From IMG/VR virus record IMGVR_UViG_3300046464_000101, positions 1 to 43,974 of that record: DNA of 43,974 nt, one strand, 5' to 3'. Position 1 is the stretch's first letter; each line of letters starts with the position of its first letter. This DNA comes from a virus. Under the pieces are notes generated by a model that was not told where the DNA came from, ran no database searches, and saw only the letters and a program-made list of their open reading frames with translations. A program made the translations under genes and the position numbers. Of the stretch, positions 1 to 43,974 are shown piece by piece.

Positions 1-54
1 GCATTAGAAGCAGGAAAACAAATTACAAATTTACAAATAGGGGAGTCTAACTAA
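1..54 (+). CDS. 3' end of an upstream structural-type gene (partial)
   Basis: An open frame runs from the window edge to a TAA at 52-54 and encodes a 17-residue tail, ALEAGKQITNLQIGESN. The stop overlaps the ATG of the next gene (TAATG), which is typical of translationally coupled phage genes. It probably belongs to the same fibre or virion gene run, but too little is visible to assign a function. Confidence 0.6.
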   Translation, partial: ALEAGKQITNLQIGESN

Positions 55-1244
55 TGGCAATTAGTGATAATCAAAAAATTGACTACCTATTTAAGAAGAT
101 TGGTTATGGTGCTACTAAAACAGATATTAATGCCAATAAGTTAGCGGCCAACGAAGCAATAGCAAGTCCACTTTTATTACGTGGTGATAAAGTTTGGGCA
201 GAAGCAGGTAGCATACCAGCAGTAAAACCATCAGCAGATACAACACAGGTAAAATTATATAATGCTGTTGAGTGTTCAGAAGATATTACATCAACAGGAA
301 ATAGAACATGGAAAACAAGTATTACAGATTGGATAACTCCAGAATTTGGTAGTACATATCTAGTAAGTGTTTACATACATGATACTAACGATTCAGCAGG
401 TGCTGAAAGTTTAGCTAACAAAGTATTTGTAACAGGTAGTGGTAATAATGACGAATGGTTCTTTGATTATCAATCTGGTGTACTAAACTTTATTGGTGAT
501 AGTTTACCAAATGGTAAATCATTTACAGGTAAAAGTGTATATATAAGTGGAGCAGTATATCAAGGTAGATTTGGTGTAGGTGATGCAACAGTAACGCAAG
601 GCTTACAAGATCAAATTGATAGTATCATTCAAAATACTGATCCAGCGGCACTTGACTCTTTAAGTGAAATTGTTACAGCCTTTCAAGGCGCTGATAGTGC
701 ATTCGCAACAAGCACAGAATTAACTGACTTAGAAGCACTATTAAGAAATGATTTAGCATTCCCATCAACTAGTATAGAGCCAGCACAAACATTTACAGGT
801 GATGGCACAACAACAGAATATCAATTAACAGCTAGTGATTTACCTTCAGTAGAAGCTATTGATGTATACGTAGACGATGTATTACAAAGACCAGATGTAT
901 TCTCAATAGATTCAAATAAAAAACTAGTATTTAATGTTACACCAGATAATGGTGCAGATATATATGTAAAGTATAGATTTCATTTTGCAAGTATTACAGC
1001 ATTTCCTGATAACTGCATAGAAAATAGACATCTAAACTTGATATATAATAGTAGTCAGTATGCTGGCGACAATAGTACAACACAATATACTATTCCAACT
1101 GGTCATACTGTACATAGTATATTAGTAATTGTAGATGGAGCAATACTTCCTCCTACAGATTATAGTATACTAGGAGCTACATTAACTCTTAATAATGCTC
1201 CATCAACTGGAGCGGTTGTAGACTTCAGATTTCTTCCAATTTAA
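54..1244 (+). CDS. tail fibre-like virion protein with beta-sandwich repeats
   Basis: This 396-residue protein is read as a tail-fibre or fibre-associated virion protein. Around residues 195-222 it carries the motif NTDPAALDSLSEIV, which recurs four times in the giant fibre gene downstream and is common in T4-like marine phage fibres. The C-terminal half holds two copies of a beta-rich module (about residues 243-310 and 335-396). Each follows the pattern GDGTTTEYQL, then a V-x-V-D-D/G core, then a closing strand. A third copy sits near the end of the 1393-6123 product. The start overlaps the preceding stop (TAATG) and is preceded by GGGGAG. It is followed by a 148-base gap with a late promoter. 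The exact structural role is not known. Confidence 0.7.
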   Translation: MAISDNQKIDYLFKKIGYGATKTDINANKLAANEAIASPLLLRGDKVWAEAGSIPAVKPSADTTQVKLYNAVECSEDITSTGNRTWKTSITDWITPEFGSTYLVSVYIHDTNDSAGAESLANKVFVTGSGNNDEWFFDYQSGVLNFIGDSLPNGKSFTGKSVYISGAVYQGRFGVGDATVTQGLQDQIDSIIQNTDPAALDSLSEIVTAFQGADSAFATSTELTDLEALLRNDLAFPSTSIEPAQTFTGDGTTTEYQLTASDLPSVEAIDVYVDDVLQRPDVFSIDSNKKLVFNVTPDNGADIYVKYRFHFASITAFPDNCIENRHLNLIYNSSQYAGDNSTTQYTIPTGHTVHSILVIVDGAILPPTDYSILGATLTLNNAPSTGAVVDFRFLPI

Positions 1245-1278
1245 ACAATATCATAATATATAATAAACAGCAATATTG

Positions 1279-1287
1279 AATAAATAC
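1279..1287 (+). promoter_or_regulatory. T4-type late promoter (AATAAATAC)
   Basis: The octamer AATAAATA followed by C matches the T4 late consensus TATAAATA except at the first base. It lies about 105 bases upstream of the giant fibre start. A hairpin at 1313-1342 lies between the two. Confidence 0.65.
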
Positions 1288-1312
1288 ATTGTATGGGTTT
1301 TACGGCCTATGC

Positions 1313-1342
1313 AGAATACTTACTTTATGTACGTATTCTTTT
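1313..1342 (+). terminator. hairpin with short T-run in the giant-fibre leader
   Basis: AGAATAC (1313-1319) pairs with GTATTCT (1333-1339) around a 13-base loop and is followed by TTTT. It could be a weak terminator or attenuator in the leader between the late promoter and the giant fibre gene, or simply leader structure. The stem is only 7 bp, so confidence is low. Confidence 0.35.
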
Positions 1343-1392
1343 GCTTATAAAGATTATAGGCAAATCAAATATATTTGATTGGAGAAATCTCT

Positions 1393-4300
1393 ATGGCTTT
1401 TAGACAAATTAAGAGTCCGGCGTTGGCTAACCAAGCGGTTATCGATACCAAACTTGATGCGAGTTCAGTTTCAGGCCAAACTGCAACTACATCAGCAAAC
1501 AACTTAGATGCTTTCCTTTTACACGACAATGCGACTTCAGCTCTGAAAAGTATTACAGCGGCAAATTTTATTGGTTCATTTACAACTGATGATATTACCG
1601 AAGGTTCAAGTAATGAATACTTTACAGATGCAAAAGCTCAATCAGCAGTAGCGGCAGACATTGCTACAGCAGTGGCGGCAGAAGCAGTGATAGCACGTGC
1701 GGCTGAACTTCAGAACGCAAATGATATCGCGGCTGAAACGTCAAGAGCGACAGCGGCAGAGGGTGTAAATGCGACGGACATCGCAAGTGAAATAAGCAGA
1801 GCTACAGCGGCAGAATCCGCTCTAGATACAGCTTATAAAGCGGCAGATGCTGGATTACAAACTCAAATAACAAACATTATATCAAACGTTGACCCTGCGG
1901 CATTAGACAGTTTATCTGAAATTGTTGCAGAATTTCAATCTCAAGATAGTGCATTGACTGCGGCAATAACAGCTAACTCGACTTTAATTACAAACGAGAC
2001 AGCTAGAGCTCAAACTGCAGAACAAGCAAATGCAACTGCAATTAGTACAGAAGCAACAAGAGCACAAGGCGCTGAAGCAACTAACGCATCTGATATTTCA
2101 ACAGAAGCGGCAACTGCTAGAGCGGCTGAAAATGCACTTGATGCTAGAGTAACTGCTAATGAAGGTGACATTACTACACTAACAACTGGATTGGCGGCGG
2201 AAATATCTGCTACAGACGGTGAAGTTTCACAACTACAAACCGACTTAGCGGCAGAAGTTACACGTGCATCAGGAGCTGAATTAGCAAATGCACAAGACAT
2301 TGCAAACGAAGCGACTGCAAGAGCAAATGCAGATACAGCGGTAAGAACAGACTTTGCAACAGCAGATGCAACAACTTTAGCATCAGCACAAACATACGCA
2401 GATACAGCAGAAGCAGATGCAATCGCTACAGCGGCGGCAGATGCAACTACAAAAGCAGACGCGGCACAAGCGGCGGCTGAAGCACACGCAGATACAGTAT
2501 CAGCGGCAGAGACAGCGGCTATCAATACAGCGGTAGCAGTAGTTGACGCTAAAGTTACTACAAATGCTTCAGATATTAGTGCGTTAGAAACAGTAGTTGG
2601 TGATGTAGCAAATACACCACTTGATACTACAGCAACATCAATTGGTGCGGCTATCAACGAACTTCACGGTGAGATTGATACTAACACTACAGATATTGCA
2701 ACTAACACAGCTGATATCGCAACTAATACAGCTGACATTGCAACTGAAACAGCTAGAATTGATAACATTCTAACTAACACAGACCCAGCGGCACTTGACT
2801 CACTGACTGAAATCGTTACAGCTTTCCAAGCTGGTGATTCAGCGGCAACAGCGGCAATTAACGCAAACGCAACTGCTATTTCGCAGAATGCTTCAGACAT
2901 CACAACTGGTGACGCGGCATTACAAACAAATATCAATGCGGAGTCTACAAGAGCACAAGCGGCTGAAGGTGTTAATGCGGCGGCAATAGCGGCAGAAACA
3001 ACAAACAGACAAGCAGGAGATGCATCAACTTTAGCATCAGCACAAGCATATGCTGATACAGCTGAAGCAGACGCGATTTCAACTGCGGCGGCTGATGCAA
3101 CTACAAAAGCAGATGCGGCAGAAGCAAATGCAATCGCAGACAGTGATGCGGCAGACGTAGCACTAATGGGTGATGCAACACTAGACGGTACAGCAGGTAA
3201 TACTGTAACAGATAGAATTGCAACAGCTAAAGCGGGTGCAGAAGCAACAGCAGAAGCTTATACTGACCAAGAAGTTCTAACTGAAAAGACTAGAGCACTT
3301 GCGGCAGAAGCGGCAAACACACTAGCTATTACAGCTAACACTGGTGATATAGCAACTAACGCGACAGACATTGCAACTAACGCAAGTGACATTGCAACAG
3401 AAACAGCAGACAGAATTGCGGGTGACGCAACTCTAACTACTGCTATTTCAAATGAAGCGTCAACAGCTAGAGCGGCAGAACTTGCTAACGCACAAGCGGT
3501 AACAGCAGAAGAAACAAGAGCACTTGCGGCAGAAGCGGCAAACGCAACAGCAATAGCAAACGAGGTATCTCGTTCAACTACTGCTGATTCAACGCACACA
3601 GCTAACATTGCAACTAACACTAACGATATTGCTACTAACTTAACAAGTATCAATAACGAAGTAGCTAGAGCAACAACAGCTGAAGCGACACTTCAAAGCA
3701 ACATCGACACGGAAACAGCTAGAATTGATTCAATCCTAACTAATACGGATCCGGCGGCGTTAGATTCACTAACTGAAATTGTTTCAGCATTCCAAAGTGC
3801 TGATAGTACAATCAATGGTGCAATCACAAGTCTAAGTAATACTGCTTCAACAGACAGAGCGTTAATTCGTACTGAATTTGCGGCGGCTGACACAGCATTA
3901 GACACACGTCTAACAGCTGAAGAAGGCAAAGTATCTACTTTAGAAACACAAGCAGGTAGTGCGGCACTACAGACAACTGCACAAACGTTATCAGAAGCGA
4001 TCAACGAACTGAACTCAGGTACAGCGGCTGATTTAACTTCTGTTAATAACGCAATTGATGCAGTAGAAACTGGTGCAGGTTTACAAAGTGACGGTTCTTA
4101 CTCAGCACACTCAGGAACACACGCAATTGATTCAGCTTCATCATTACATGATGCAGACTCTAAATTAGATGCGGCAATCCTAGCTGAAAAAACAAGAGCT
4201 GAAGCGGCAGAAGCAACACTAACTACAAATGTTTCAGCAAATGCAACAGCAATCTCTGGTAATACAGCAGACATTGCAACTAATGCAACAGCAATCGCAA

Positions 4301-6123
4301 CTAATGCATCTGACATCTCTACTAACGCGGCAGACATAGCGTCTGAAGCAAGTACAGCTAGAGCGGCAGAATCAGCGAATGCAAACGCAATTACAGCAGA
4401 AGCAACTACAGCAAGAGCGGCTGAACAAGCAAATGCAACAGCTATCGCAAATGAGTCAACAAGAGCTCAAGCGGCAGAAGCGGCAAATGCAACTGATATC
4501 GCAGACAACTTAACTGAAATTACAGCTACACAAGCTGGCGCAGGTTTAGGTGTTGATGGTACATATTCAGCAAATGCAACAGCAGACTACATCTCAACTG
4601 CATCATCATTGAAAGATGCTGATAACAAGTTAGATGCGGCTGTTAAAGCAGAAGAAACTAGAGCTACAGCGGCAGAAGGTGTGTTAACTACAAACCTAGC
4701 AACTGAAGTAACTAGAGCTCAAACTGCAGAACAAGCTAATGCGGCAGATATTGCTACAGAAACAGCTAGAGCAACAGCGGCGGAAGCGGCTAATGCAACG
4801 TCTATTTCAACAGTAGCAACAGACTTGGCAACAGAAGTGACACGTACAGACGCTTTAGTAGTCACAGTTAACGATATTATCAGTAACACGGATCCAGCGG
4901 CGCTAGATTCATTAACTGAAATCGTTACTGCTTTCCAAAATGCAGACAGCACACTAACAGGTACAGTAGCGGCAAACGCAACTGCCATTACTAACCTAAG
5001 TACAGCTTTAACAAGCGAAGTAAATGACAACGACACAGACCACGCGGCGGCGACAACTGACAGGGCGGCTATCCGTACTGAGTTTGCGGCGGCTGATGCG
5101 GCTCAAGACACAGTAATCGCAACTAAACTAGCACTTGCTGGTGGAACAATGAGTGGCGATATTGCTATGGGCGGTCAACTAGTAACAGGTTTAGGAACAG
5201 CGGCCAATCCAGGTGACGCAGTATCTAAAGCAGTACTAGATGCGGCAATTTCAGCACAAGACATCTCTACTAATACTACAGATGACTTAGCTGAAGGTTC
5301 AAACCTATACTACACTGATGCCAGAAGCAGAGCGGCAATTAGTGTTAATGACGTTGCAGGCGCAGGCTTAGTAAGCTACGATAACAGCACAGGTGTTATC
5401 TCGGTTGACACTAACGAATCAGTCCTAGACTTAACAGATGTATCTGATACAGATTACACTAACAAAGACGGATACGTATTAGCAGTTAACTCAAATGAAG
5501 ACGGTATGGAACTGAAAAACCCGTTAAATGTTTTCTCAACACAAGAGAGAATGACAATTAATGGTGATGGATCTGCAACGCAGTATTCATTAACTTTCAC
5601 TACAACACAAGACCAAGCAATGGTTTTTGTTGGTGGTGTTATTCAGGATCCATCAACTCACTACACTATCGATAGTGCGGCGAAAACTATCACGTTTAAC
5701 TCAGCAGTACCAGTTGGTACACAAATTGTTGTGTTATCACCAGGTGCAGGACTTAACCCAGTACTACTTGCTAACTCAGTATCATTCGACAAACTAGCGG
5801 CTGATATTAAAGCATACGTACAAAAAGGTGAAGTATCAGCTTCCGGTTCAACTACAGTTGATTCATTCAACGGTGCGTTGTATCGTTCAGCGAAATACAT
5901 CATGCAGGTTGATGACGGCGCAGGTAACTATGAGACACGTGAAGCTTTAGTAGTACATGATGGTAGTACTGCATACATTACAGAGTACGCAATGGTTTAT
6001 ACTGGTGCAGACTTAATTGGTGATGCAAGTGTTACTATGAACGGAAACCAAGTTGAATTAACTTACACTCCGACAAGTGGTACAGCTACAGTTAAAGTGA
6101 TCGCTACTTACATTGATGTGTAA
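1393..6123 (+). CDS. giant Ala/Thr-rich repetitive tail fibre protein
   Basis: This 1,576-residue protein is probably the shaft of a long tail fibre. I start it at ATG 1393 (MAFRQIKSPALANQ), because GGAGAA at 1381-1386 sits 6 bases upstream. An earlier in-frame TTG at 1375 would bury that ribosome site. The N-terminus resembles those of the genes at 8451 and 10251 (MAFRK, MAFKI). Most of the length is helical repeat of the type ETARATAAEAANATAI, with stretches of TADIATN heptads, as expected of a trimeric coiled coil. Four copies of NTDPAALDSLTEIVTAFQ-like blocks break it up at roughly 1881-1930, 2761-2830, 3721-3800 and 4871-4940. Near the C-terminus is a GDGSATQYSL beta module shared with the 54-1244 product. 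Ala-Ala is written almost only as GCG-GCN. Long open frames on the opposite strand are artefacts of this composition. Confidence 0.85.
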   Translation: MAFRQIKSPALANQAVIDTKLDASSVSGQTATTSANNLDAFLLHDNATSALKSITAANFIGSFTTDDITEGSSNEYFTDAKAQSAVAADIATAVAAEAVIARAAELQNANDIAAETSRATAAEGVNATDIASEISRATAAESALDTAYKAADAGLQTQITNIISNVDPAALDSLSEIVAEFQSQDSALTAAITANSTLITNETARAQTAEQANATAISTEATRAQGAEATNASDISTEAATARAAENALDARVTANEGDITTLTTGLAAEISATDGEVSQLQTDLAAEVTRASGAELANAQDIANEATARANADTAVRTDFATADATTLASAQTYADTAEADAIATAAADATTKADAAQAAAEAHADTVSAAETAAINTAVAVVDAKVTTNASDISALETVVGDVANTPLDTTATSIGAAINELHGEIDTNTTDIATNTADIATNTADIATETARIDNILTNTDPAALDSLTEIVTAFQAGDSAATAAINANATAISQNASDITTGDAALQTNINAESTRAQAAEGVNAAAIAAETTNRQAGDASTLASAQAYADTAEADAISTAAADATTKADAAEANAIADSDAADVALMGDATLDGTAGNTVTDRIATAKAGAEATAEAYTDQEVLTEKTRALAAEAANTLAITANTGDIATNATDIATNASDIATETADRIAGDATLTTAISNEASTARAAELANAQAVTAEETRALAAEAANATAIANEVSRSTTADSTHTANIATNTNDIATNLTSINNEVARATTAEATLQSNIDTETARIDSILTNTDPAALDSLTEIVSAFQSADSTINGAITSLSNTASTDRALIRTEFAAADTALDTRLTAEEGKVSTLETQAGSAALQTTAQTLSEAINELNSGTAADLTSVNNAIDAVETGAGLQSDGSYSAHSGTHAIDSASSLHDADSKLDAAILAEKTRAEAAEATLTTNVSANATAISGNTADIATNATAIATNASDISTNAADIASEASTARAAESANANAITAEATTARAAEQANATAIANESTRAQAAEAANATDIADNLTEITATQAGAGLGVDGTYSANATADYISTASSLKDADNKLDAAVKAEETRATAAEGVLTTNLATEVTRAQTAEQANAADIATETARATAAEAANATSISTVATDLATEVTRTDALVVTVNDIISNTDPAALDSLTEIVTAFQNADSTLTGTVAANATAITNLSTALTSEVNDNDTDHAAATTDRAAIRTEFAAADAAQDTVIATKLALAGGTMSGDIAMGGQLVTGLGTAANPGDAVSKAVLDAAISAQDISTNTTDDLAEGSNLYYTDARSRAAISVNDVAGAGLVSYDNSTGVISVDTNESVLDLTDVSDTDYTNKDGYVLAVNSNEDGMELKNPLNVFSTQERMTINGDGSATQYSLTFTTTQDQAMVFVGGVIQDPSTHYTIDSAAKTITFNSAVPVGTQIVVLSPGAGLNPVLLANSVSFDKLAADIKAYVQKGEVSASGSTTVDSFNGALYRSAKYIMQVDDGAGNYETREALVVHDGSTAYITEYAMVYTGADLIGDASVTMNGNQVELTYTPTSGTATVKVIATYIDV

Positions 6124-6292: not shown

Positions 6293-8338
6293 ATGGCACA
6301 AAGAAAATTTATAATTGACGGTGGTTTTAAAACTGATGACGCCTCAGAATTACTAGCCAATTTAACGATGGGTGGTTCAATCCTACCTGACGTTGATTCG
6401 GATGGTACAACTGGTTACGACTTGGGTTCTACTACTGCAAAATGGAAAGATTTATACCTTTCTCAAGGATCACTTTACATTAATAACCAAAAAGTAATCC
6501 ATGATGATTCAGGTACAATCGTTCTTAAAGCAGATACGGACCAAGGCTTAACTGTTAAAACTGAGGGCACAGGAGTAATTACCCTGCAATCAACACAAAC
6601 AGTAAATGTCGCTGGTACTTTACAGATGCTAGATGGCAAAAACATCACTTCAAGTGGTGGAACTTCAGTTGGTTTTGGTGACAAAATTGACATGAATTCA
6701 AACAAGATAATAAATGTTCCAAATCCGACAGACGGTGGGGACGTTTCTAACAAAACTTATGTGGACTTACAGATTTCAAACGTAGTCAACGGTGCACCAG
6801 GTGCGTTAGATACATTGAACGAATTAGCAAACGCCTTAGGTGATGACGCTAATTTCTCAACTACAATAACTAATAACATTGCGGCAAACGCAAGTGCTAT
6901 TACTGCTCTACAAACTACAAGTAGCAATAATGGTACTGCAATGACTACAGCTCAAGCAGATATTATTGCTAATACAACAGCTATATCTTCTGAAGCAACT
7001 ACAGCTAGAGCGGCAGAAGCCACTTTAACTACAAACCTAGCGGCAGAAACTACAGCTAGGGTAGCTTTTGAAACATCTGCAACTGCAGACATTGGTTTAA
7101 AAGCGGCGAAGACTTATGTTGATTCACAAGACGCGGCATTAACATCTACACTACAAAGTTATGCAGATACAGCTGAAGCAGATGCTGTTACTTCTGCTAA
7201 CTTATATACAGACGGTAGAGAAACTGCAATTACAACAGCTTATACTAGTGCAATATCAGTACTTACAACTGATGATGTTCCTGAATCAGGATCACCAACT
7301 AATGTATACTTTACTGACGCAAGAGTAGATACTGCATTAGGTACAGTTGGCGCAGACATTCTTCCTGCAACAACTGAAACTTACAACTTAGGTTCAGCAA
7401 CAAATCGTTGGAATAAACTATTCCTAAAAGGTTCAACAATTGACCTAGGTGGTGTAGACATTTCAGCTTCAGGTGGCGGTATGTCAGTTGGTGGTTCAGA
7501 CATGGCTACTCAAGCATATGCAGACCAAGCAGAAGCAGATGCGATTACAACAGCAGTAGCTAATATTAAAGGCAATGCTCTAGACATGGGTGCTAATGAT
7601 ATTACTACAACTGGTAAAGTTAAATTTGCTAACGTTTACGCGACAGACGGCGATCTACCAGCGGCGGGTACATACCACGGTATGTTTGCTCACGTACATG
7701 ATGGTGGAAAAGCTGTTTTTGCTCACGCAGGTAACTGGGTGGAACTAGCTAAACAATCAGATCTTACAACTGCGGTTAACAACCTTGTAGATTCAGCACC
7801 AGGTGCTTTAGATACATTGAATGAACTAGCGGCGGCAATGGGTGATGATGCTAACTTTAGTACAACAATGACTAACAACCTAGCAAGTAAAGCGGCAACA
7901 GGTACTAACATGATAGCTGGTAACGGCTTAACAGGTGGTGGTACACTAGCAAGTGATCGTACATTTAACGTCGGTGGCGGAAATGGTATCACAGTAAGTG
8001 CAGATGGCATAGCTATGTCAGGTTCATATACTGGTGACTTTACAGCAACTGGTGATGTTACAGCATACTCAGATGAGAGCTTAAAAAGAAACATTCAAGT
8101 AATTGATGGTGCTCTAGGAAAAGTAGAGAATATTAGTGGTTACACTTGGAACAGAATTGCAGATGATTCAAGAGCAACAGGTGTTGTTGCCCAAGAATTA
8201 GAAGCAGTACTTCCAGAAGCAGTACACACTGATGCAACTGGTTTAAAATCAGTAGCATATGGTAACATTACAGGTCTACTAATTGAAGCGGTTAAGGAAT
8301 TATCAGCTCAAGTAGCAGAACTTAAAGCTAACAAGTAA
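6293..8338 (+). CDS. tail fibre protein with C-terminal peptidase S74 chaperone
   Basis: This 681-residue fibre protein ends in an intramolecular chaperone (peptidase S74 family, about residues 590-681). Visible marks of the family are YSDESLKRNI, with the Ser and Lys used for self-cleavage in endosialidase-type fibres, then GVVAQELEAVLPEAV and a terminal helix. In known members the domain trimerises the fibre and then cuts itself off. Upstream are two APGALDTLNEL blocks (near residues 165 and 500), a coiled-coil middle, and a segment FANVYATDGDLPAAGTYHG (about 444-484) that recurs in the gene at 10251. ATG 6293 follows AAAGGAG. It is a single-gene unit between a late promoter and a strong terminator. 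Confidence 0.85.
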   Translation: MAQRKFIIDGGFKTDDASELLANLTMGGSILPDVDSDGTTGYDLGSTTAKWKDLYLSQGSLYINNQKVIHDDSGTIVLKADTDQGLTVKTEGTGVITLQSTQTVNVAGTLQMLDGKNITSSGGTSVGFGDKIDMNSNKIINVPNPTDGGDVSNKTYVDLQISNVVNGAPGALDTLNELANALGDDANFSTTITNNIAANASAITALQTTSSNNGTAMTTAQADIIANTTAISSEATTARAAEATLTTNLAAETTARVAFETSATADIGLKAAKTYVDSQDAALTSTLQSYADTAEADAVTSANLYTDGRETAITTAYTSAISVLTTDDVPESGSPTNVYFTDARVDTALGTVGADILPATTETYNLGSATNRWNKLFLKGSTIDLGGVDISASGGGMSVGGSDMATQAYADQAEADAITTAVANIKGNALDMGANDITTTGKVKFANVYATDGDLPAAGTYHGMFAHVHDGGKAVFAHAGNWVELAKQSDLTTAVNNLVDSAPGALDTLNELAAAMGDDANFSTTMTNNLASKAATGTNMIAGNGLTGGGTLASDRTFNVGGGNGITVSADGIAMSGSYTGDFTATGDVTAYSDESLKRNIQVIDGALGKVENISGYTWNRIADDSRATGVVAQELEAVLPEAVHTDATGLKSVAYGNITGLLIEAVKELSAQVAELKANK

Positions 8339-10250: not shown

Positions 10251-11894
10251 ATGGCATTTAAAATTGGAAACAAAATAGTATTACACGACGCAGATCCTAG
10301 TGCAACATTATTAACAAACAGTAATTTAGATCAGTTACAAATTAATGGAGTAGATGTGTTCACGCATGATGGTACTACAGTTACATTACAGAATGTTGAG
10401 ATACCATCTCAAAATGCAACAAATGCAAGTTTAACAGCAAGTGTTAATACTAATACAGCAAACATTGCTACTAATACAGCAAATATTGCATCTAATGCTA
10501 CAGCGATATCAAATAATACTACAGCAATATCAAATAATGCTACAGCGATATCAAATAATGCTACAGCCATTACAAATAATGCTACAGCGATATCAAATAA
10601 TGCTACAGCTATTATAAACAACGAAACAGCAATTAATAATAATGTTACAGCAATAGCAAACACACTAGTAGATGCAAAAGCATATACAGATACACGTGAA
10701 ACAGCAATTACTACAGCATATACATCAGCTATAGCGTCATCTACATCAAGTGGTAGTACAGCGGCAAACTCATATACAGATACAGAAATTGCTACAGCTA
10801 CAGCAAGTATAACTACAGCATATCAAACTTATACAGATACAGCTGAAGCAGATGCAATTAGTACAGCTAACACTTATACAGATACTAGAGAAGTAGCAAT
10901 AACTACAGCATATGAAACATATACAGATACAGCAATATCAAATTTAGTTGATACAGCTCCAACAACATTAGATACATTAAATGAATTAGCGGCGGCACTT
11001 GGTGACGATGCAAACTTCTCAACAACAATAACAACTTCAATAGCAACAAAATTAGCTACAGCAGATTTTACAAGTACAGCAGATACTTGGTTAGGTACTA
11101 AAGATACAGGAGATTTAGCAGAAGGCTCTAATTTATATTATACAGATGCTAGAGTAGATTCTAGAATAACAGCAAACGCAAGTGGAACAATTACAAATTC
11201 AGATTTAGATATGAACGGTAATAAAGTTTTATTTGCTAACGTCTATGCAACAATAGGTGATCTTCCAAGTGCAAGTACATATCATGGAATGTTTGCTCAT
11301 GTACACGCAACAGGCAAAGGATATTTTGCTCATGCAGGTAACTGGGTAGAACTAGCTAATGCAAGTGAAGTATTTGATGGAAACTATAGCTCTTTATCAG
11401 GTGTTCCTAGTTTTGCAACAGTAGCAACGTCAGGTGATTATAGCGACCTTAGTAATAAACCAACAATTCCAACAGACAATAATCAATTAGCAAATGGTGC
11501 AGGATATGTTACAACTGATACAAACACAACATATACAGCAGGCAATGGATTATCATTAAGTGGAACAGAATTTTTAATGAGTGGTAGTTACACAGGTGAC
11601 TTTACAGCAACTGGTGATGTTACAGCATACTCAGATAAAAGATTAAAAAGAAATATTGAAACTATTACAAATGCAGTAGATACAGTAAGTAAATTACGTG
11701 GTGTACATTTTGAAAAAGATGGTAGAAATAGTACTGGTGTAATAGCACAAGAAGTAGAAGAAATATTGCCTCAAGTAGTACATACAGCTCCAGATGGAAT
11801 GAAATCAGTAGCATATGGTAATATAGTAGGTATTTTAATAGAAGCTATAAAAGAGCAACAAAAAGAGATAGAAGAATTAAAGAAAAGATTATAA
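10251..11894 (+). CDS. tail fibre protein with heptad stalk and S74 chaperone
   Basis: This 547-residue fibre protein has a clear three-part layout. The N-terminus is MAFKIGNKIVLHDADPSAT. A stalk of ten consecutive heptads (residues 66-135) has Ile every seventh residue (NATAISN type), like the stalks of trimeric coiled coils. The C-terminus is a peptidase S74 domain (about 460-547) with YSDKRLKRNI and GVIAQEVEEILPQVV, ending in a charged helix. Residues 326-367 closely match the 6293 gene (FANVYATIGDLPSASTYHG), so the two C-terminal halves are paralogous and may have exchanged sequence. Codon use is more AT-rich than in the 1393 gene. The ribosome site is AGAGGA. Confidence 0.85.
   Translation: MAFKIGNKIVLHDADPSATLLTNSNLDQLQINGVDVFTHDGTTVTLQNVEIPSQNATNASLTASVNTNTANIATNTANIASNATAISNNTTAISNNATAISNNATAITNNATAISNNATAIINNETAINNNVTAIANTLVDAKAYTDTRETAITTAYTSAIASSTSSGSTAANSYTDTEIATATASITTAYQTYTDTAEADAISTANTYTDTREVAITTAYETYTDTAISNLVDTAPTTLDTLNELAAALGDDANFSTTITTSIATKLATADFTSTADTWLGTKDTGDLAEGSNLYYTDARVDSRITANASGTITNSDLDMNGNKVLFANVYATIGDLPSASTYHGMFAHVHATGKGYFAHAGNWVELANASEVFDGNYSSLSGVPSFATVATSGDYSDLSNKPTIPTDNNQLANGAGYVTTDTNTTYTAGNGLSLSGTEFLMSGSYTGDFTATGDVTAYSDKRLKRNIETITNAVDTVSKLRGVHFEKDGRNSTGVIAQEVEEILPQVVHTAPDGMKSVAYGNIVGILIEAIKEQQKEIEELKKRL
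10446..10655 (+). repeat. 21-bp degenerate tandem repeats (ten heptads)
   Basis: Ten 21-base units encode heptads with an invariant Ile. The central units are nearly identical (AATAATGCTACAGCGATATC type). The array codes for the coiled-coil stalk of the fibre. Such arrays can lengthen or shorten by slippage or recombination without breaking frame. Confidence 0.8.
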
Positions 11895-18219: not shown

Positions 18220-19581
18220 CTATAAGTAAAGTCTCCAGAAACCTGCATTATATACGCCTTCATAACTATTAACCCACTCTGAACCATTCCACTCTAGTTG
18301 GTCGCTACTTGATAAGTTTGTAACGTGTTGGGTATCACTTACACTACTGCTATCAAAACTAACATTCCAAGTTGAACCGTTATATTCAATAACATCATAT
18401 TTATTAGCTACTAACCCACTCCATATTGGTGTAGAAGGAATAGGATTAATTAGTATGTAACGTTGTCCAGTGACAGCACTAGGAACAGTTCCATCGCCTG
18501 GATAATTAATTGATGGATCTAAAATAGCATTTACGGCATTTAGTGTATTAGTAGGTAAAGTTGAAGGATCAATATCTACGATTAGTAAATTAGGATCACT
18601 TGGATGTTCGTCTAATCGTCCTATAATATCTTCATCTTTAGCACCTGGATCTTTTGATTTTCTAAGTCTTAGTTGACTTATTCCAGGTCGTAATACTCCA
18701 AATGGAGTAAGTTCTTTGGCCCATTCTAATACATTACCGTCATCATCTAAATTGCTTCCATTAGCATTTAATAGTTGAAGGTTGTTGTTTTCATATTTTA
18801 CTTTTCTATCTTCATATGTTACAACTGTATATTGTAAAGTTTCGTTATTAAATGGTTGTTCAGCTTTAAATAGATCTAAGTTTTCATCATCTAAGTTATA
18901 AAGTTCACTTATAATCGTATGAATTAGTTTTTGTTGTTTTACCTTTGCAGGAGGATTTATATAAACTGGTATATCAAATGACATTGTAGCTACATCAATA
19001 ATATCGTCAATACTTGATCCAACACTTCTTGTACTCCAGGTAGTATTAGTAAGTTCTACGTGAGATAACGCAGTCCAGTCTAGTGGACTAGCATTTGTTC
19101 TAATATCTAATGTAGGATTAAATAAAACAAGCATTTGTTCTAGTAACTGTAATTTTTGATCTGTATTTGATGACCATACATCTGCGTTCATTTGCATTAT
19201 GTAAGGAACTGGAGCATGACGTTCTACAGTATAGCTATTGCCTTTTTCGTTTTTATATTCTCCAGTAGTTTGGTCATACTTTTTTTCGTATACTTGAACT
19301 TTATCTACATGATCTTGATATGTACGTCTTTCTGGTACTAAATTTAAATTTGTTACATAACAACTTATAAATGGAACAGTATTCATAATGTTTTCACTGT
19401 TCTCTCTTGTTATGTGAGCCGCCATTCTGTTTATATCACCATAACGTACTGGAACTTTATGAAATACTGGAAGACCTGATTCTTCATTTTTACCCATTTG
19501 TACACTGAAGCCACTAAACAATCTTATAAATTGTTGAATGTATCTTCTTATTTGTTTATCATAAAAGTATTGTTGGCTCAT
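18220..19581 (-). CDS. 15: tail completion and sheath stabiliser, gp15-like
   Basis: A 453-residue homologue of T4 gp15, the hexameric terminator ring that caps the tail and holds the sheath. The N-terminal half follows the family: YFYDKQIRRYIQQFIRLFS, then VPVRYGD, NTVPFISCYVTNLN, PVPYIMQMNADVWSSNT, and LEQMLVLFNPTLDI. T4 gp15 has 272 residues. The extra 180 or so at the C-terminus include NGSTWNVSF and WNGSEWVNSYEG, resembling the W-rich beta modules inserted into the sheath protein. The start overlaps the gp14 stop (ATGA). It lies on the minus strand, unlike the other T4-like structural genes here. Confidence 0.8.
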   Translation of the reverse strand: MSQQYFYDKQIRRYIQQFIRLFSGFSVQMGKNEESGLPVFHKVPVRYGDINRMAAHITRENSENIMNTVPFISCYVTNLNLVPERRTYQDHVDKVQVYEKKYDQTTGEYKNEKGNSYTVERHAPVPYIMQMNADVWSSNTDQKLQLLEQMLVLFNPTLDIRTNASPLDWTALSHVELTNTTWSTRSVGSSIDDIIDVATMSFDIPVYINPPAKVKQQKLIHTIISELYNLDDENLDLFKAEQPFNNETLQYTVVTYEDRKVKYENNNLQLLNANGSNLDDDGNVLEWAKELTPFGVLRPGISQLRLRKSKDPGAKDEDIIGRLDEHPSDPNLLIVDIDPSTLPTNTLNAVNAILDPSINYPGDGTVPSAVTGQRYILINPIPSTPIWSGLVANKYDVIEYNGSTWNVSFDSSSVSDTQHVTNLSSSDQLEWNGSEWVNSYEGVYNAGFWRLYL

Positions 19582-20648
19582 TTGTTAAAATCACTTTTTG
19601 GTTTAATAACTTGGGATAGAGGCTGACGTTCTGGAAACTCTTGATCGTCAATAATTGTTGTAGCCTTATTATTAATAAAGCTACTAGCATTGTAAGTTCT
19701 ATCACTCCAAGTTTGTTCAGTAACATTGTCATATAATCTATGCCATTTGCTTCCACGTCTTACAAATAGTCTATTAGGAGTAAAGTCTGTTCTAATAAAA
19801 TATTCTCCATCTTTGGGATTTCCTGGAAACTGGTCACCTTGTTGTAAAGCTTCACCGTGTTTGTATTCGTTATCAACTTCTTCTTGGCCAAATAAATGTT
19901 CAGCAAGTGGCAAACCTAATGGATCAGCTTCTTCAGCACTTTTCACAATAGCATTACTGATATTAAGTTCTGTTTTGTAAGCACTAACTTTATTTTTAAG
20001 GCTTCCTGGATCTTTAGCACTACCAAGTATATCTTTGTATTCTTGTGTATCTGTTAATGGTGCTACTTTAATTCTCCAAATATGTGGATACCAAGTCTGT
20101 GAAAATCCTTCACTACCCCTAGCGGCATCTTGAACTACATAAAATTTATTAATAGCATCTCTGTCGTTGCTTAATAAAAGTTCATCTCTTAAATGAGGCA
20201 ATTCAATAACATCACCTGGCATTAATCTTCTACCTAATTTTTCTACCATATCATTGATATGAAAACTTATAAACAAAGTATCGTTGGTTAAGAATAATCC
20301 AAATTGAGTTAAATCAAAGTCATTGTCACTAACATTATATACTCCACGAAGATCAAAAATATCAGGATCATATTTACGATCTCTATTTTCCATAAACAGT
20401 AAGTCTTGAATATTTGTTTCATCAATTATACCTTCTGGATTTATTTCTTCTCCGGTTGTATTGTCTATTTCTAAACCACTGCCGTAGTTCGGCTCACTAG
20501 GATCATTATTGCCTTGTTGAGGTTGTGGACCCAAATACTTATGGACGTGTATAGCCGTACCGCCTATATCGAACTGTTCTCGTATAGTTCTGTCCATGAA
20601 TTTGTAATCATTACCTTTATAAGGCTTATATAGTGTAAAACGTGGCAT
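19578..20648 (-). CDS. 14: neck protein, gp14-like
   Basis: A 356-residue homologue of the T4-like neck protein gp14, which together with gp13 joins the filled head to the tail. Marks shared with marine T4-like gp14 proteins are MPRFTLYKPYKGNDYKFMDR, GGTAIHVHKYLG, LLFMENRDRKYDPDI and FDLTQFGLFLTNDT. Near the C-terminus, GEYFIRTDFTPNRLFVRRG is a W/beta module like those in the sheath and gp15. AAGGAA precedes the start, and a minus-strand late promoter lies at 20670-20677. It is the first gene of the minus-strand block 14-15-nudix, physically separated from gp13 at 25456. Confidence 0.8.
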   Translation of the reverse strand: MPRFTLYKPYKGNDYKFMDRTIREQFDIGGTAIHVHKYLGPQPQQGNNDPSEPNYGSGLEIDNTTGEEINPEGIIDETNIQDLLFMENRDRKYDPDIFDLRGVYNVSDNDFDLTQFGLFLTNDTLFISFHINDMVEKLGRRLMPGDVIELPHLRDELLLSNDRDAINKFYVVQDAARGSEGFSQTWYPHIWRIKVAPLTDTQEYKDILGSAKDPGSLKNKVSAYKTELNISNAIVKSAEEADPLGLPLAEHLFGQEEVDNEYKHGEALQQGDQFPGNPKDGEYFIRTDFTPNRLFVRRGSKWHRLYDNVTEQTWSDRTYNASSFINNKATTIIDDQEFPERQPLSQVIKPKSDFNK

Positions 20649-22220: not shown

Positions 22221-23423
22221 ATGAAGATTTGCATCATAGGAGGCGGAACTACAGGATGGTGGGCCGCTGGTTACATAGAGCATAACTTTCCAGATTATGA
22301 TATAACACTTATTGAAAGTAGTGATATACCAATAGTTGGCGTAGGTGAAAGTACACTTCCTATGATCAAAACTTTTTTTGATAGTTTTGGTATGCAAGAA
22401 GAAACATGGATGTCAAAATGTGATGCTATACACAAACATGGTAATATAAAACAAGGTTGGGATAAACCAGATGGTGATGAATTTAAATTTACATTTTGGT
22501 TTAATGATGATAATGTATTTGAAGATTGGTATAAGAAGTACAAAGCAGGTGAAGTTACAAAACATCAAATCAACGAAGAACTGTATGATGCCAAAGGTTG
22601 GAGAGCAGTAGCATATCATTTACACGCAGAAGAAGCAGGGCGTATAGTAAAAGAAAATTGTAAAAATGTAAAACATATTGTACAAACACTTGATAAAAGA
22701 CCAGAGGGGTATGACTTATATATTGATTGTACAGGTTTCCGTAGACAATTTGTCAACGATAAAACTGAAGTAGAAATACATGAAAAGCATTTAGTTAATA
22801 GTGCTTGGGTTTGTCCATTTGAGCTAGATGAACATATTCCATATACTAGAAGTATAGCACGTGATTATGGTTGGCAATTTAAAATTGGATTAACTTCTCG
22901 TATTGGTACTGGTTATGTTTATAGTGATAAGCATATTAGTAATGAAGATGCACTAGAAGAGTTTAAAGATTATACAAAAGACTTAACACCATTTATGGGT
23001 AAACAACCACGTAATATTAAATGGAATCCTAATTGGTTAAAGAATCCATGGGCAGGCAATACGGTTGCTATAGGGCTTAGTCAAGGCTTTATTGACCCAT
23101 TAGAATCAAATGCATTGTTTATGATACAATATAGTATTACGACGCTTGTAGAGTGCTTAAAACGCGAATATGACGCCAAAACTTACAATAGAATGATCAA
23201 CAGAGTTTGGAAAGAAAACAGTGATTACATATTACATCACTATGCATTATCTAACAGAGACGATACAAGTTTCTGGAAAGAATATACAGATATGGATATG
23301 AGTGAAACTGTATGGGAACACTATAAAAAGACTGGAAACAAATATACTAATCTTTATCCCGATGCTATATGGGCAACACTAGCTCTTTACTACGATAATT
23401 TCAAGCATTTTTCCGGAAAATAA
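22221..23423 (+). CDS. flavin-dependent tryptophan halogenase-like protein
   Basis: A 400-residue homologue of the FADH2-dependent halogenases. In order are the FAD loop IIGGGTTGWWAAG (5-17), VGESTLPMIK (41-50), a lysine in IHKHG (Lys72) at the place of the catalytic Lys that carries the hypohalite in PrnA-type enzymes, YIDCTGFRR, GYVYSDKHIS, and AIGLSQGFIDPLESNAL. The W-x-W-x-I signature reads GWQFKIG (217-223), with Phe for the second Trp. PrnA-type enzymes have more than 500 residues, so this is a compact version. Halogenase-like genes occur in marine cyanophages, and one of them (VirX1) has been reported to be an active halogenase. The substrate here is unknown. A terminator follows. Confidence 0.85.
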   Translation: MKICIIGGGTTGWWAAGYIEHNFPDYDITLIESSDIPIVGVGESTLPMIKTFFDSFGMQEETWMSKCDAIHKHGNIKQGWDKPDGDEFKFTFWFNDDNVFEDWYKKYKAGEVTKHQINEELYDAKGWRAVAYHLHAEEAGRIVKENCKNVKHIVQTLDKRPEGYDLYIDCTGFRRQFVNDKTEVEIHEKHLVNSAWVCPFELDEHIPYTRSIARDYGWQFKIGLTSRIGTGYVYSDKHISNEDALEEFKDYTKDLTPFMGKQPRNIKWNPNWLKNPWAGNTVAIGLSQGFIDPLESNALFMIQYSITTLVECLKREYDAKTYNRMINRVWKENSDYILHHYALSNRDDTSFWKEYTDMDMSETVWEHYKKTGNKYTNLYPDAIWATLALYYDNFKHFSGK

Positions 23424-39785: not shown

Positions 39786-39807
39786 GTACAGGCTAACAAA
39801 GGCAAAC

Positions 39808-39850
39808 GTAATCAATAGATTACACTAAAAAGTTAACACAGAGTTAACTT
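39808..39850 (+). promoter_or_regulatory. two tandem hairpins in the gp32 leader
   Basis: GTAATC-AATA-GATTAC (39808-39823) and AAGTTAAC-ACAGA-GTTAACTT (39830-39850) are perfect stems just upstream of the AAAGGAGA ribosome site. T4 gp32 represses its own translation by binding structured leader RNA, so an analogous role is plausible. Confidence 0.5.
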
Positions 39851-39880
39851 ACTATTATAGGCTAATAAAGGAGATACATT

Positions 39881-40897: not shown

Positions 40898-40905
40898 TTA
40901 AATCT

Positions 40906-40932
40906 AGAGTGTAGCTTCGGCTACACTCTTTT
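40906..40932 (+). terminator. rho-independent terminator with UUCG tetraloop
   Basis: A perfect 10-bp stem (AGAGTGTAGC / GCTACACTCT) closed by a C(TTCG)G loop is followed by TTTT. It lies between gp32 and uvsX and probably sets the excess of gp32 over UvsX. Confidence 0.9.
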
Positions 40933-40950
40933 AACAAGGAGAAAAAACAT

Positions 40951-42042: not shown

Positions 42043-42044
42043 AG

Positions 42045-42323
42045 ATGAATATAACAGATGGAGACTTTGAATTATTGTTTAATCTGTATGATGAAGCTAA
42101 AGAATTTATTAGTGAAAAGGATAAACCTGAATTTGCTAATAAATTCGTTTATCATCTAGCTGACTATGGTTTTGAAATTAAAACTGCGGCAAAAGAAATA
42201 GCTGATCATTGTGATTACCTTGCAGATGCAATGGACGAATATATAGAAAACAACGATGATGATGAAGATCCGTATGATGACTATAGTGAAGGCTATAGTG
42301 ATGATGACGATGAGCAATATTAA
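42045..42323 (+). CDS. small acidic protein between uvsX and uvsY
   Basis: A 92-residue, strongly acidic protein. A helical first part (DGDFELLFNLYDEAKEFISE) ends in a run of Asp/Glu/Tyr (residues 69-92, YIENNDDDEDPYDDYSEGY). It starts 2 bases after uvsX with GAGGAG inside the uvsX end and precedes uvsY by 2 bases, so the three are translated together. The acidic tail could mimic DNA and regulate UvsX or gp32, but this is inference. No family is recognised. Confidence 0.65.
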   Translation: MNITDGDFELLFNLYDEAKEFISEKDKPEFANKFVYHLADYGFEIKTAAKEIADHCDYLADAMDEYIENNDDDEDPYDDYSEGYSDDDDEQY

Positions 42324-42325
42324 TT

Positions 42326-42784
42326 ATGAGTGTATGGTATCGTAAAGTAACTGCAAATTTAAGCGAGATAGTTGAAACTATTTCTCATTTTGAGAAAGAA
42401 ATTGATCAAGCTCGTTTTGAATGTGGAATGAAAGGCAATCTCGAAAAGCATAGTAGAGAGATGCCTGGTGTTGTGGAGCATAGATTTAATCAGTTACAGG
42501 AAGTAGAAGCAATACTAGAGTTTCTCAATACTGAAATGAGAAAACTACGTGCTAAAACGTTCAGAAAATACTTGGAAAATTATAATAAAGCATTAAGCAG
42601 TAGAGATGCAGAAAAGTATGTGGATGGAGAACAAGAAGTGGTTGATTTGCAGTACCTAATCAATGATTTTAGTTTAGTACGTAATCGATACATAGGAATT
42701 ATTAAGGCTTTAGAAGCTAAAGGATTTCAAATAAACAACATAGTTAAGCTAAGAGCGGCTGGTTTAGAAGATATTTCGTTATAA
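42326..42784 (+). CDS. uvsY: UvsY recombination mediator
   Basis: A 152-residue recombination mediator that loads UvsX onto gp32-coated ssDNA. Family marks of marine T4-like UvsY are VWYRKVTANLSEIVETI at the start, KGNLEKHSREMPGVVEHRFN, AILEFLNTEMRKLR, YNKALSSRDAEKYVDGEQEV and KLRAAGLEDISL at the end. Only two bases separate it from the upstream acidic gene and no ribosome site is obvious, so coupling is likely. It is close in length to T4 UvsY (137). Confidence 0.9.
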   Translation: MSVWYRKVTANLSEIVETISHFEKEIDQARFECGMKGNLEKHSREMPGVVEHRFNQLQEVEAILEFLNTEMRKLRAKTFRKYLENYNKALSSRDAEKYVDGEQEVVDLQYLINDFSLVRNRYIGIIKALEAKGFQINNIVKLRAAGLEDISL

Positions 42785-42798
42785 CGCCATATTATTGG

Positions 42799-42827
42799 TT
42801 GACAAAAATTTTTTTAAGCCGTATAAT
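42799..42827 (+). promoter_or_regulatory. perfect consensus sigma-70 promoter
   Basis: TTGACA (42799-42804), 17 bases, TATAAT (42822-42827). The leader to ATG 42884 is about 50 bases and carries CAGGAGC. Confidence 0.85.
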
Positions 42828-42883
42828 TAACGTATAGATTGTAAAAACCAACAGGGCGGACATCCCAAACACAGGAGCAAACT

Positions 42884-43597
42884 ATGCCAAAAAATTTATT
42901 TAATAATATCACTACATTAGATGTGATGTGTGCTTCTGTTGAAGTATACAAGTCACAAGGATTCATTAAAAGTGGACATGGTTATACAGATACTGATCAT
43001 GCGAGTGGTGAACCAGTAAAAATAGATGATAATAAAACTATGATGTTATCTCTATTAAAAGCAAAAGATGCTGGTAAAACAAATTTCACAACAGAAACTG
43101 TAGAAGAAGCTAATAATCTAATTAATAGTATTAATGGTAAATTAATGCTAAAAAAGATGACAAATACTCTTAACAATTTTGAGAGCAATGTTGTTAAAGC
43201 ATTATCAGAAGCTGACGTGAATAAGTTTTCAATAAGCATTATTGCAAGTTTACCACATAGTGTTAGTATTGACAAAAAACGTGAAGTTATTGCAGATCGT
43301 ATGTCAGGTCTAAAACACAGTAGCCAATATTTTGGTGAAAAAGGTAAACGTTTTGATATTGATGTAGAAGTACTTGATGTTAAATTTATTCAAACTAGTA
43401 ATGTCTATATGATTTCTACTTGTTATGCAGAAAAAGATATTGTTAAGTTTTGGTGGAGAGATCAACCAGATATTAGTGATATTATTGCTAACAAAACTAT
43501 TAAGATTCGTGCTACAGTTAACAAGCATGAACTATCTAAATATACAGGTGCTAAAGAAACTATGGTAAACCGTGTTAAAATTTTAAGTATTGCATAA
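42884..43597 (+). CDS. hypothetical protein with C-terminal OB-fold-like segment
   Basis: A 237-residue protein. The C-terminal 90 residues (FDIDVEVLDVKFIQTSNVYM, KFWWRDQPDIS, TIKIRATVNKHELSKYTGAK, VNRVKIL) show the strand order and the ATV-x-KH...Y-x-G-x-K-x-T-x-x-x-RV pattern seen in small OB-fold segments of phage and plasmid nucleic-acid-binding proteins. The first half is helical and Lys/Asn-rich. An early promoter and a place after UvsY support a role in DNA replication or recombination. The fold call is by eye. It overlaps the next gene as TAATG. Confidence 0.55.
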   Translation: MPKNLFNNITTLDVMCASVEVYKSQGFIKSGHGYTDTDHASGEPVKIDDNKTMMLSLLKAKDAGKTNFTTETVEEANNLINSINGKLMLKKMTNTLNNFESNVVKALSEADVNKFSISIIASLPHSVSIDKKREVIADRMSGLKHSSQYFGEKGKRFDIDVEVLDVKFIQTSNVYMISTCYAEKDIVKFWWRDQPDISDIIANKTIKIRATVNKHELSKYTGAKETMVNRVKILSIA

Positions 43598-43923
43598 TGG
43601 TTGATATACTTATAAAATCTGTTGTAGGTGGATTACTAATTGGTATAGTAAGTACATTAGCACAAAAGAATCCAACAGCCGGTGCATTTATAATGGGAAT
43701 ACCATTGGTAAGTTTTATTACATTGGTAATTATGCATTATAGTGGAGTAGATTTTCAAACTTTAAAAACATTTAGTTATCAAACCGTATACTTTGTATTG
43801 GTAAGCCTAGTTTTCTTTCCTTTATTCATTTGGTTTTATCCAGGTGGATTTTGGGTAGCACTTATTTCTAGTGCAACAGGTGTTGGTATAATGATGGCAA
43901 TCCTAGCAAAAATAATTGCTTGA
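43597..43923 (+). CDS. DUF3147-like small integral membrane protein
   Basis: A 108-residue inner-membrane protein with about four hydrophobic segments (near 5-22, 28-50, 62-80 and 85-107). MVDILIKSVVGGLLIGIVST, then GAFIMGIPLVSFITLVIM and VLVSLVFFPLFIW, agree with the DUF3147 family, whose function is unknown. The start overlaps the preceding stop (TAATG). Co-transcription with a recombination gene under a consensus early promoter means the protein is made early, when membrane changes or superinfection exclusion would be useful, but that is speculation. Confidence 0.7.
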   Translation: MVDILIKSVVGGLLIGIVSTLAQKNPTAGAFIMGIPLVSFITLVIMHYSGVDFQTLKTFSYQTVYFVLVSLVFFPLFIWFYPGGFWVALISSATGVGIMMAILAKIIA

Positions 43924-43948
43924 CATATTTCGCATTTTATTATATAGT
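43920..43948 (+). promoter_or_regulatory. sigma-70-type promoter reading out of the window
   Basis: TTGACA (43920-43925, overlapping the TGA stop of the membrane protein gene), 17 bases, TATAGT (43943-43948). It should drive the next gene beyond the window. Confidence 0.7.
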
Positions 43949-43974
43949 AATAGTTAATTTAATTATTAAATTAA

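Follow-up and report, generated by a model that had tools for sequence, protein, structure and literature searches.

Elimination of recognition sites is a known anti-restriction strategy, and GCWGC is the word recognized by the TseI/ApeKI and BbvI restriction enzymes. The same word is described in PMC8936443 as the recognition sequence of M.BatI. According to the survey of Rusinov 2018 (PMC6286503), whose main text makes no mention of marine phages, pelagiphages, or cyanophages, sites of Type I and Type IIG systems show no avoidance and those of Type III systems very little. Pelagiphages, particularly podoviruses, are portrayed in PMC9516812 as depleted of GANTC, a word that their hosts methylate; GCWGC does not occur in the main text of that paper. 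For the SAR11 hosts themselves, just one of more than 100 genomes is stated in PMC7029224 to encode a restriction-modification system. A complete loss of a short word is seen in Staphylococcus phage K, where GATCN stands at 0/411 (observed/expected) in the first 100 kb.

The window analyzed here is a stretch of viral DNA of 43,974 bp with a G+C content of 35.5%. A word count over all of its bases gave zero GCAGC and zero GCTGC, so that the absence read from the letters in a preliminary description of this DNA was borne out, as were the abundance of GCGGC (115 copies) and the presence of GCCGC (4 copies). No other 5-mer in this DNA was as under-represented as GCWGC, for which the Markov-3 expectation is 75.7 (z = −8.7), and a codon shuffle, which holds proteins and codon usage fixed, predicted 102.7 ± 4.5 sites in the coding part, where none was found. 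Neither of these nulls, both proposed as checks at the outset, is near zero, and the initial random expectation of about 24 sites was an underestimate. On the coding strand, GCAGC was at 0/66.9 and GCTGC at 0/35.8 under the codon shuffle; as both forms are gone, the loss is strand-symmetric. Since the two are mutual reverse complements and mark the same sites, their absence does not separate GCWGC from an asymmetric GCAGC. GCSGC was over-represented rather than depleted, and in the long Ala-rich ORF adjoining the tail-fiber genes Ala-Ala is written without GCA-GCN or GCT-GCN, as first described. The window, whose features are listed in Table 1, is part of the genome of a large marine myovirus; positions 20000 to 43974 gave no DNA match to named phages.

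Table 1. Features of the window and the family matches on which their names are based
Feature	Position	Strand	Remarks
Whole window	1..43974	.	Zero GCWGC (both strands), RCATGY, RCASTGY, RCAATTGY, GCWWGC
Tail-fiber-related protein	54..1244	+	Best match phrog_9417 (function unknown); weaker matches to tail fiber families
Long Ala-rich ORF adjoining tail-fiber genes	1375..6123	+	Function inferred from position; single weak match (E 1e-4), to a PHROG without assigned function
Tail fiber protein	6293..8338	+	phrog_1197 and others
Long tail fiber distal subunit-like protein	10251..11894	+	Family match
Tail sheath stabilizer/completion protein	18220..19581	-	phrog_11196 (E 4e-95); phrog_227
Virion structural protein	19578..20648	-	phrog_11591 (E 2.6e-93)
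Tryptophan-halogenase-like protein	22221..23423	+	phrog_2928 (E 7.8e-87)

The tail sheath stabilizer/completion protein served as the marker for fetching relatives and for splitting purged (≥92% identity) from unpurged (≤81%) loci. Among the best 80 of 179 relatives, GCWGC was missing from all 12 loci at ≥92% identity and occurred at least once in all 68 at ≤81%, which answers the comparison with close relatives that had been suggested earlier. The clade relatives have a G+C content of 33 to 36%. One of the 12, the 221,643-bp contig G001, has GCWGC at 0/264 ± 7.5 in its coding sequence, and a 124,177-bp relative has it at 0/182; the whole contigs of both, non-coding DNA included, contain none. 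The sisters have a mild deficit, at 0.49 to 0.67 of the codon-shuffle expectation, and part of the GCWGC bias is therefore not clade-specific. A further relative, G010, is partly depleted.

The fate of individual sites was followed in an alignment of G001 with the sister G005 (73.6% nucleotide identity). None of the 113 aligned GCWGC sites of the sister survives in G001, compared with 14 to 66% of sites kept for 13 control words. The changes that removed them were largely synonymous (65/113), and all 65 changes to GCSGC within genes were of this kind; the commonest, GCTGC to GCCGC (55/113), replaces T by C on the strand examined. A comparable loss was found for RCATGGR between strains at 87.8% identity, where 0/24 sites survive and control words keep 43 to 83%; this loss is restricted to one sub-lineage of the clade.

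GCWGC is not the only word to have been lost. The preliminary description was right that the GCWGC purge is real and left unreported RCATGY (0/24.8 in the window), RCASTGY (0/12.2), GCWWGC (0/16.5), and AGCGTD (2/30.3). The coding sequence of G001 is likewise without RCATGY and RCASTGY, and also lacks RCTWAGY, RCAATTGY, and RCATGGR, with GCWWGC and AGCGTD nearly gone; three sister phages keep these further words. AGCGTD and RCATGGR are asymmetric; GCWGC, like the majority of the lost words, is palindromic, and several share the form RC-core-GY. WGCGCW is purged in the sisters too and is not clade-specific. A search of G001 for gapped Type I-like words (3+3, 3+4, and 4+3, gaps of 1 to 10) identified none that was purged, using a cut-off of below 30% of expectation at log10 p < −7. 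To our knowledge, no restriction enzyme recognizes RCASTGY, RCTWAGY, RCAATTGY, or GCWWGC, and these words had no occurrence in the paper texts searched. The word counts and G010 suggest a single flexible enzyme for GCW(1-2)GC, although the wider list of fixed-core words makes several specificities more likely.

Some of these words are also purged in unrelated phages of SAR11, the most common bacteria of the ocean. In HTVC019P-type SAR11 podoviruses, GCWGC was at or below 10% of expectation in 78 of 79 testable loci, and GANTC was low in 64 of 78. Of the nine clade words, eight were purged in one or more of five cultured SAR11 phages; 2.9 were expected (P ~4e-4, with background words that are not independent). 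Cultured SAR11 phages show 4 to 14 purged words. The overlap looks decisive at first sight but is weakened by its control, in which 12 to 47% of same-shaped words count as purged in one SAR11 phage or another. GCWGC was normal in HTVC008M, Mosig, and HTVC010P, other phages of SAR11 strain HTCC1062, and in T4, T7, lambda, P-SSM2, and P-SSP7. It is low in Staphylococcus phage K (1/7.5), and P-SSM2 is without WGCGCW (0/11.5), so one shared word means little.

The best reading of these data, to which we give a probability of roughly 0.8, is elimination of recognition sites under host Type II restriction, with several specificities acting at once. Hosts within range would cut unmethylated GCWGC with a TseI/ApeKI- or BbvI-like Type II enzyme, and the lineage would have dropped every site in the DNA seen; other Type II-like specificities would account for the loss of RCATGY, RCASTGY, RCAATTGY, RCTWAGY, GCWWGC, and AGCGTD, and of RCATGGR in one sub-lineage. 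We infer that restriction enzymes are the cause and that they are host encoded, and the hosts may be SAR11 or similar marine alphaproteobacteria whose restriction systems form a changing pool. For site avoidance, ≤10% of expectation under a coding-preserving null was sought, and the values for the window and G001 are zero; the effect goes beyond codon-usage bias, as both strand forms are at zero with non-coding DNA included, and the words purged in G001 are short and contiguous, as for Type II, and not gapped, as for Type I. Searches for two methyltransferase families in 13 phage records, which may be incomplete, detected no protecting enzyme of the phage's own, with no C5 DNA methyltransferase (PF00145) in any and PF01555 only below cut-off, in the sister G005. 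Escape from host restriction was also the first candidate of the preliminary description, and the nulls, the sister loci, the 113 lost sites, the SAR11 podoviruses, and the co-purged words support it without proving it.

The other candidate named there, a phage-encoded nuclease with GCWGC specificity, fared less well. A phage that degraded host DNA, for example, with such an enzyme could protect itself by lacking sites instead of by methylation, and total absence over 221 kb would fit, as would the endonuclease VII/HNH gene present in G001 and G003. This gene has no match in G002, however, which is equally GCWGC-free, and T4 EndoVII is structure-specific and not sequence-specific. At least five further words are at zero in the G001 coding sequence, so several nucleases would be needed. 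No nuclease gene tracking the purge was identified by comparison of G001 gene content with relatives, a motif scan, or family-library searches, which took in selected proteins of the 278 predicted in G001. One gene, G001_134, is common to G001, G002, G003, and the partly depleted G010, with no match in G005, G008, or G009; it has no Pfam or PHROG match. With no C5 methyltransferase in the 13 phage records either, self-protection from an own nuclease lacks positive support and is considered very unlikely.

The purge could also stem from a different host defense directed at short motifs that lack modification, such as a BREX-like, DISARM-like, Type III, or Type IIG system, and the asymmetry of AGCGTD and RCATGGR would suit it. 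Against it, the palindromic form of GCWGC and most other words is that of orthodox Type II sites, G001 has purged no gapped word, and the avoidance pattern outlined by Rusinov 2018 (PMC6286503) for Types I, IIG, and III points the same way; we consider this very unlikely. That composition, codon-pair bias, or mutation such as m5C deamination at GCWGC cleared the sites without restriction is extremely improbable. The sisters' mild deficit does indicate some codon-context effect, but 0 against 264 on both strands far exceeds it, SAR11 host DNA is normal for GCWGC (354/308), and GCSGC is enriched. Deamination would produce C to T, the opposite of the commonest change.

Evidence on the host behind the proposed restriction is mixed. 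G001 encodes an alphaproteobacterial-type tmRNA (RF01849, E 4.9e-27). This and the clade's G+C of 33 to 36% would be expected of a SAR11 phage, for which a value near 33% was sought; other alphaproteobacteria have the same traits. A DNA search with the tmRNA returned matches of 33 to 41 bases alone, none diagnostic. For one G001 tRNA pair, the best match in 147 SAR11-order genomes scored 86 bits (85%) and the best in 372 genomes of the class 103 bits (88%), so the closest tRNA genes were not those of SAR11; these matches would weakly favor alphaproteobacteria outside the SAR11 order, and the five best lie on contigs of 39 to 49% G+C. C5 methyltransferases were present in 56 of 297 SAR11-order genomes; 50 such ORFs formed 23 clusters at 50% identity, and 6 of 12 tested neighboring ORFs were nuclease-like. 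None of these methyltransferases was assigned to GCWGC, and neither a methyltransferase nor an endonuclease specific for this word was identified in a host; no gene for a GCWGC-recognizing enzyme was identified in the window or its relatives.

The loss of several words from more than 200 kb, with a 74%-identity sister that keeps them, amounts to an unusually clean natural experiment. There is about an even chance that phages of SAR11-like ocean bacteria document, across their genomes, a pool of Type II systems that is large, shifting, and population-level, in hosts described as almost restriction-free. Many of these systems would have specificities not yet described, RCASTGY, RCTWAGY, RCAATTGY, and GCWWGC among them. 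If so, the words that a phage has purged could serve as a fingerprint of its host range and as concrete predictions of undiscovered enzymes, their specificities, and who infects whom. The number of purged words per cultured SAR11 phage contradicts the nearly restriction-free SAR11 of PMC7029224, at least as that work is summarized above, and the contradiction is testable.

Compared with described systems, the virulent dsDNA phages covered by Rusinov 2018 (PMC6286503) are alike in losing short, mostly palindromic words and no gapped Type I-like ones; unlike those cases, a single large phage has here lost several words at once, and for some of these no restriction enzyme is known to us. The depletion reported for pelagiphages in PMC9516812 concerns GANTC, whereas the word of the window clade is GCWGC. 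Staphylococcus phage K, without GATC, likewise has a complete loss of a short word, but phage group and host group both differ, and in the window clade the loss is of GCWGC along with further words. For TseI/ApeKI, BbvI, and M.BatI, the recognition word is the very word purged in the window clade.

A direct count over the 43,974 bases of the window returned no GCAGC and no GCTGC, as the preliminary description had reported, whereas a third-order Markov model predicts 75.7 GCWGC sites and a codon shuffle preserving proteins and codon usage predicts 102.7 ± 4.5 in the coding sequence. GCGGC, described there as abundant, was present in 115 copies, and GCCGC in 4. GCAGC and GCTGC are reverse complements of each other, so what is avoided is a single site in double-stranded DNA; from the absence alone, palindromic GCWGC recognition and asymmetric GCAGC recognition are indistinguishable. 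The window spans an entire virus record and carries myovirus tail genes. By the tail sheath stabiliser, its closest named relatives were large phages (best, Sinorhizobium phage Phosso; 37% identity), and megablast of positions 20000 to 43974 found no named-phage DNA match.

Features located in the window and in related phage contigs
Feature	Source	Position	Strand	Remark
Tail sheath stabiliser	window	18220-19581	minus	myovirus tail gene
Fibre genes	window			myovirus tail genes
Tryptophan-halogenase-like gene	window	22221-23423		
Halogenase-like gene	G001	contig 85811-87031		
Endonuclease VII/HNH gene	G001	L087:11074-11508		
tmRNA	G001	L090:2280-2645		permuted type
SPPY-motif protein	G005	contig 55696-56808 (L103:15696-16805)	minus	weak DNA-methyltransferase PHROG match (E 4e-6)

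The absence extended to close relatives. Among the best 80 of 179 tail sheath stabiliser relatives in the viral collection, GCWGC was missing from all 12 loci at ≥92% identity (L002 to L013), although these loci represent fewer than 12 independent lineages (six match the window at 100% identity, and L009 is nearly the same as L010), and was found at least once in 68 of 68 loci at ≤81% identity. Four longer contigs of the clade also had no sites, against expectations of 264.1 ± 7.5 in G001 (221,643 bp), 182 in G002 (124,177 bp), 74 in G003, and 113 in G004. The deficit was mild in the sister phages (observed/expected, 164/334 in G005, 129/228 in G008, and 134/199 in G009), strong in the more distant relative G010 (38/207), and total in the clade.

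GCWGC is one of several words purged in the clade; the absence first described is real and part of a larger phenomenon. Purged words were identified by k-mer comparison against the codon-shuffle null. In the coding sequence of G001 (open reading frames of ≥240 bases), RCATGY, RCASTGY, RCTWAGY, and RCAATTGY were absent (107, 46, 71, and 27 expected, respectively), as was RCATGGR (82 expected; one copy elsewhere in the contig), and GCWWGC and AGCGTD were reduced to 4 (65 expected) and 6 (124 expected). G002, which is of the same type as the window, contained no GCWGC, RCATGY, or RCASTGY and had low counts of RCAATTGY (1/16), GCWWGC (2/39), and AGCGTD (6/69); RCTWAGY was reduced in part only (5/39), and RCATGGR was unpurged (26/45). 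GCWGC deficit aside, none of these words was low in the three sisters. In G010, GCWGC and GCWWGC (4/46) were the only strongly low words among them, a pattern that would fit one activity, or two linked ones, acting on both. At the threshold set, a scan of G001 for gapped words (3+3, 3+4, and 4+3; gaps to 10) yielded ungapped words only. Six of the words purged in the G001 and G002 contigs (GCWGC, RCATGY, RCASTGY, RCTWAGY, RCAATTGY, and GCWWGC) share the outline RC-core-GY. WGCGCW was absent from the G001, G005, G008, and G009 contigs alike, an older purge common to clade and sisters.

The loss of sites was followed in a 124.7-kb alignment of G005 to G001 (73.6% identity). No G005 site survived in G001 for GCWGC (0/113), RCATGY (0/109), RCASTGY (0/19), RCTWAGY (0/61), RCAATTGY (0/25), GCWWGC (0/55), or RCATGGR (0/71), and 2 of 64 AGCGTD sites did, while 13 control words kept 14 to 66% of theirs. 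Of the changes at the 113 lost GCWGC sites, 65 were synonymous, 45 were not, and 3 lay outside predicted genes; the changes from GCWGC to GCSGC inside genes numbered 65, all synonymous. The most frequent change on the strand read, GCTGC to GCCGC (55 of 113), runs opposite to deamination. Between G002 and G001 (87.8% identity), 0 of 24 RCATGGR sites were kept versus 43 to 83% for control words; thus, closely related strains differ in whether this word has been purged.

Avoidance of restriction is the best reading of the purge, with a probability of about 0.8. Restriction enzymes of the TseI and ApeKI type and, as GCAGC, of the BbvI type recognize GCWGC; NspI is a further named enzyme. The preliminary description had also offered protection from a phage-encoded nuclease, for which an endonuclease VII/HNH gene in G001 and G003 is a candidate; it has no match in G002, G005, G008, G009, or G010 and, having none in the purged G002, does not follow the distribution of the purge. 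Searches of 13 phage records, which may be incomplete, gave no C5 methyltransferase (PF00145), and a subthreshold N6/N4 methyltransferase match occurred in the sister G005 only. The SPPY-motif protein of G005 had no match in the purged contigs compared. Of the contigs compared with G001, just G002, G003, and G010 had a match to G001_134, which itself had no Pfam or PHROG match. A codon-pair preference in SAR11 cells does not explain the purge, since GCWGC is normal in SAR11 DNA (354 observed/308 expected; 120 contig pieces).

Concerning the host, the G001 tmRNA is alphaproteobacterial (RF01849; E value, 4.9e-27), with the tag AEDNFAIAA, compared with ANDNYSPEMALAA in G005 and GEDNFALAA in Pelagibacter phage Mosig. 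The one G001 tRNA pair tested scored at best 86 bits (85%) among 147 SAR11-order genomes and 103 bits (88%) among 372 genomes of the class, scores that would count against a SAR11 host; contigs around the five best class-wide matches had a G+C content of 39 to 49%. The halogenase-like gene of G001 shared ∼90% DNA identity with the G008 copy (genome average, ∼74%) and its protein only 57% with that of the window, which suggests recent exchange.

Cultured SAR11 phages are also heavily purged. HTVC019P lacked GCWGC (0/39.9), HTVC010P lacked RCATGY (0/11) and RCTWAGY (0/7), HTVC008M lacked RCASTGY (0/25), and GCWWGC was absent from HTVC011P (0/10) and HTVC019P (0/9); a second count repeated these results. 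GCWGC was normal in HTVC008M, Mosig, and HTVC010P; its expectation in HTVC011P is too low to judge. Among the best 80 of 559 HTVC019P-capsid relatives, HTVC019P included, counts were ≤10% of expectation for GCWGC in 78 of 79 testable loci, GATC in 79/79, GANTC in 64/78, CTNAG in 33/78, TCGA in 13/52, RCATGY in 0/24, and ACGT in 0/73. GANTC is depleted in about half of 33 pelagiphages, according to a section of PMC9516812. Many words were absent from the cultured SAR11 and OM43 phages (L139 to L149: HTVC008M, Mosig, Melnitz, HTVC011P, HTVC010P, and HTVC019P), GATC from several; with palindromes extended by N counted in both directions, Mosig had ACGTN at 0/489, and HTVC008M had NTCGA at 4/414 and TCWWGA at 0/154. 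Greedy enumeration, in which counts vary with the length supplied and some words overlap, gave at least 14 purged words in HTVC008M and in OM43 phage Melnitz and 11 in Mosig; three SAR11 podoviruses had 6, 6, and 4. Among other phages, T7 had 5, P-SSP7 had 2, and lambda had none, and stretches of 100 kb yielded 9 for P-SSM2, 1 (a homopolymer) for T4, and 4 for Staphylococcus phage K, the positive control (GATCN, 0/411). In the window's own group, the enumeration found 8 for G001, 4 for G002, and 2 for the window, compared with 1 to 3 for the sisters. At a threshold of ≤20% of expectation, eight of nine clade words were purged in one or more of the five SAR11 phages compared, with 2.9 expected from random same-shaped words (P about 4e-4, or 1e-3 without WGCGCW, also missing in the sisters; these values are indicative because random words are not independent). 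In six control phages, 2 clade words were low versus 1.8 expected. RCASTGY, RCAATTGY, RCTWAGY, and GCWWGC did not occur in the paper texts searched, and no report of multiword purging in SAR11 phages was seen in the literature searched.

A part of PMC7029224 states that only one of >100 SAR11 genomes encodes restriction-modification. PF00145 scored above the cutoff in 56 of 297 SAR11-order genomes, a few by fragments only, and in 6 of 43 of a first set that shares some genomes with it. The 52 surrounding loci held 50 methyltransferase-like open reading frames, several as tandem pairs, forming 23 clusters at 50% identity and 16 at 40%; none could be assigned to GCWGC. Of 12 neighboring open reading frames, for each of which one to three libraries were searched, six matched nuclease families (three HNH and three PD-(D/E)XK type, one of the latter just below the Pfam cutoff), one a methylase-associated domain, and one glutamyl-tRNA ligase, and four had no match. 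We hypothesize a population pool of rare, diverse restriction systems, which would explain how a phage can have many purged words when each cell has few systems. In portions of a survey of site elimination (Rusinov 2018, PMC6286503), elimination is described as stronger in nontemperate phages, as affecting for the most part sites of orthodox Type II systems, and as complete or near-complete in about one-tenth of viral genomes.
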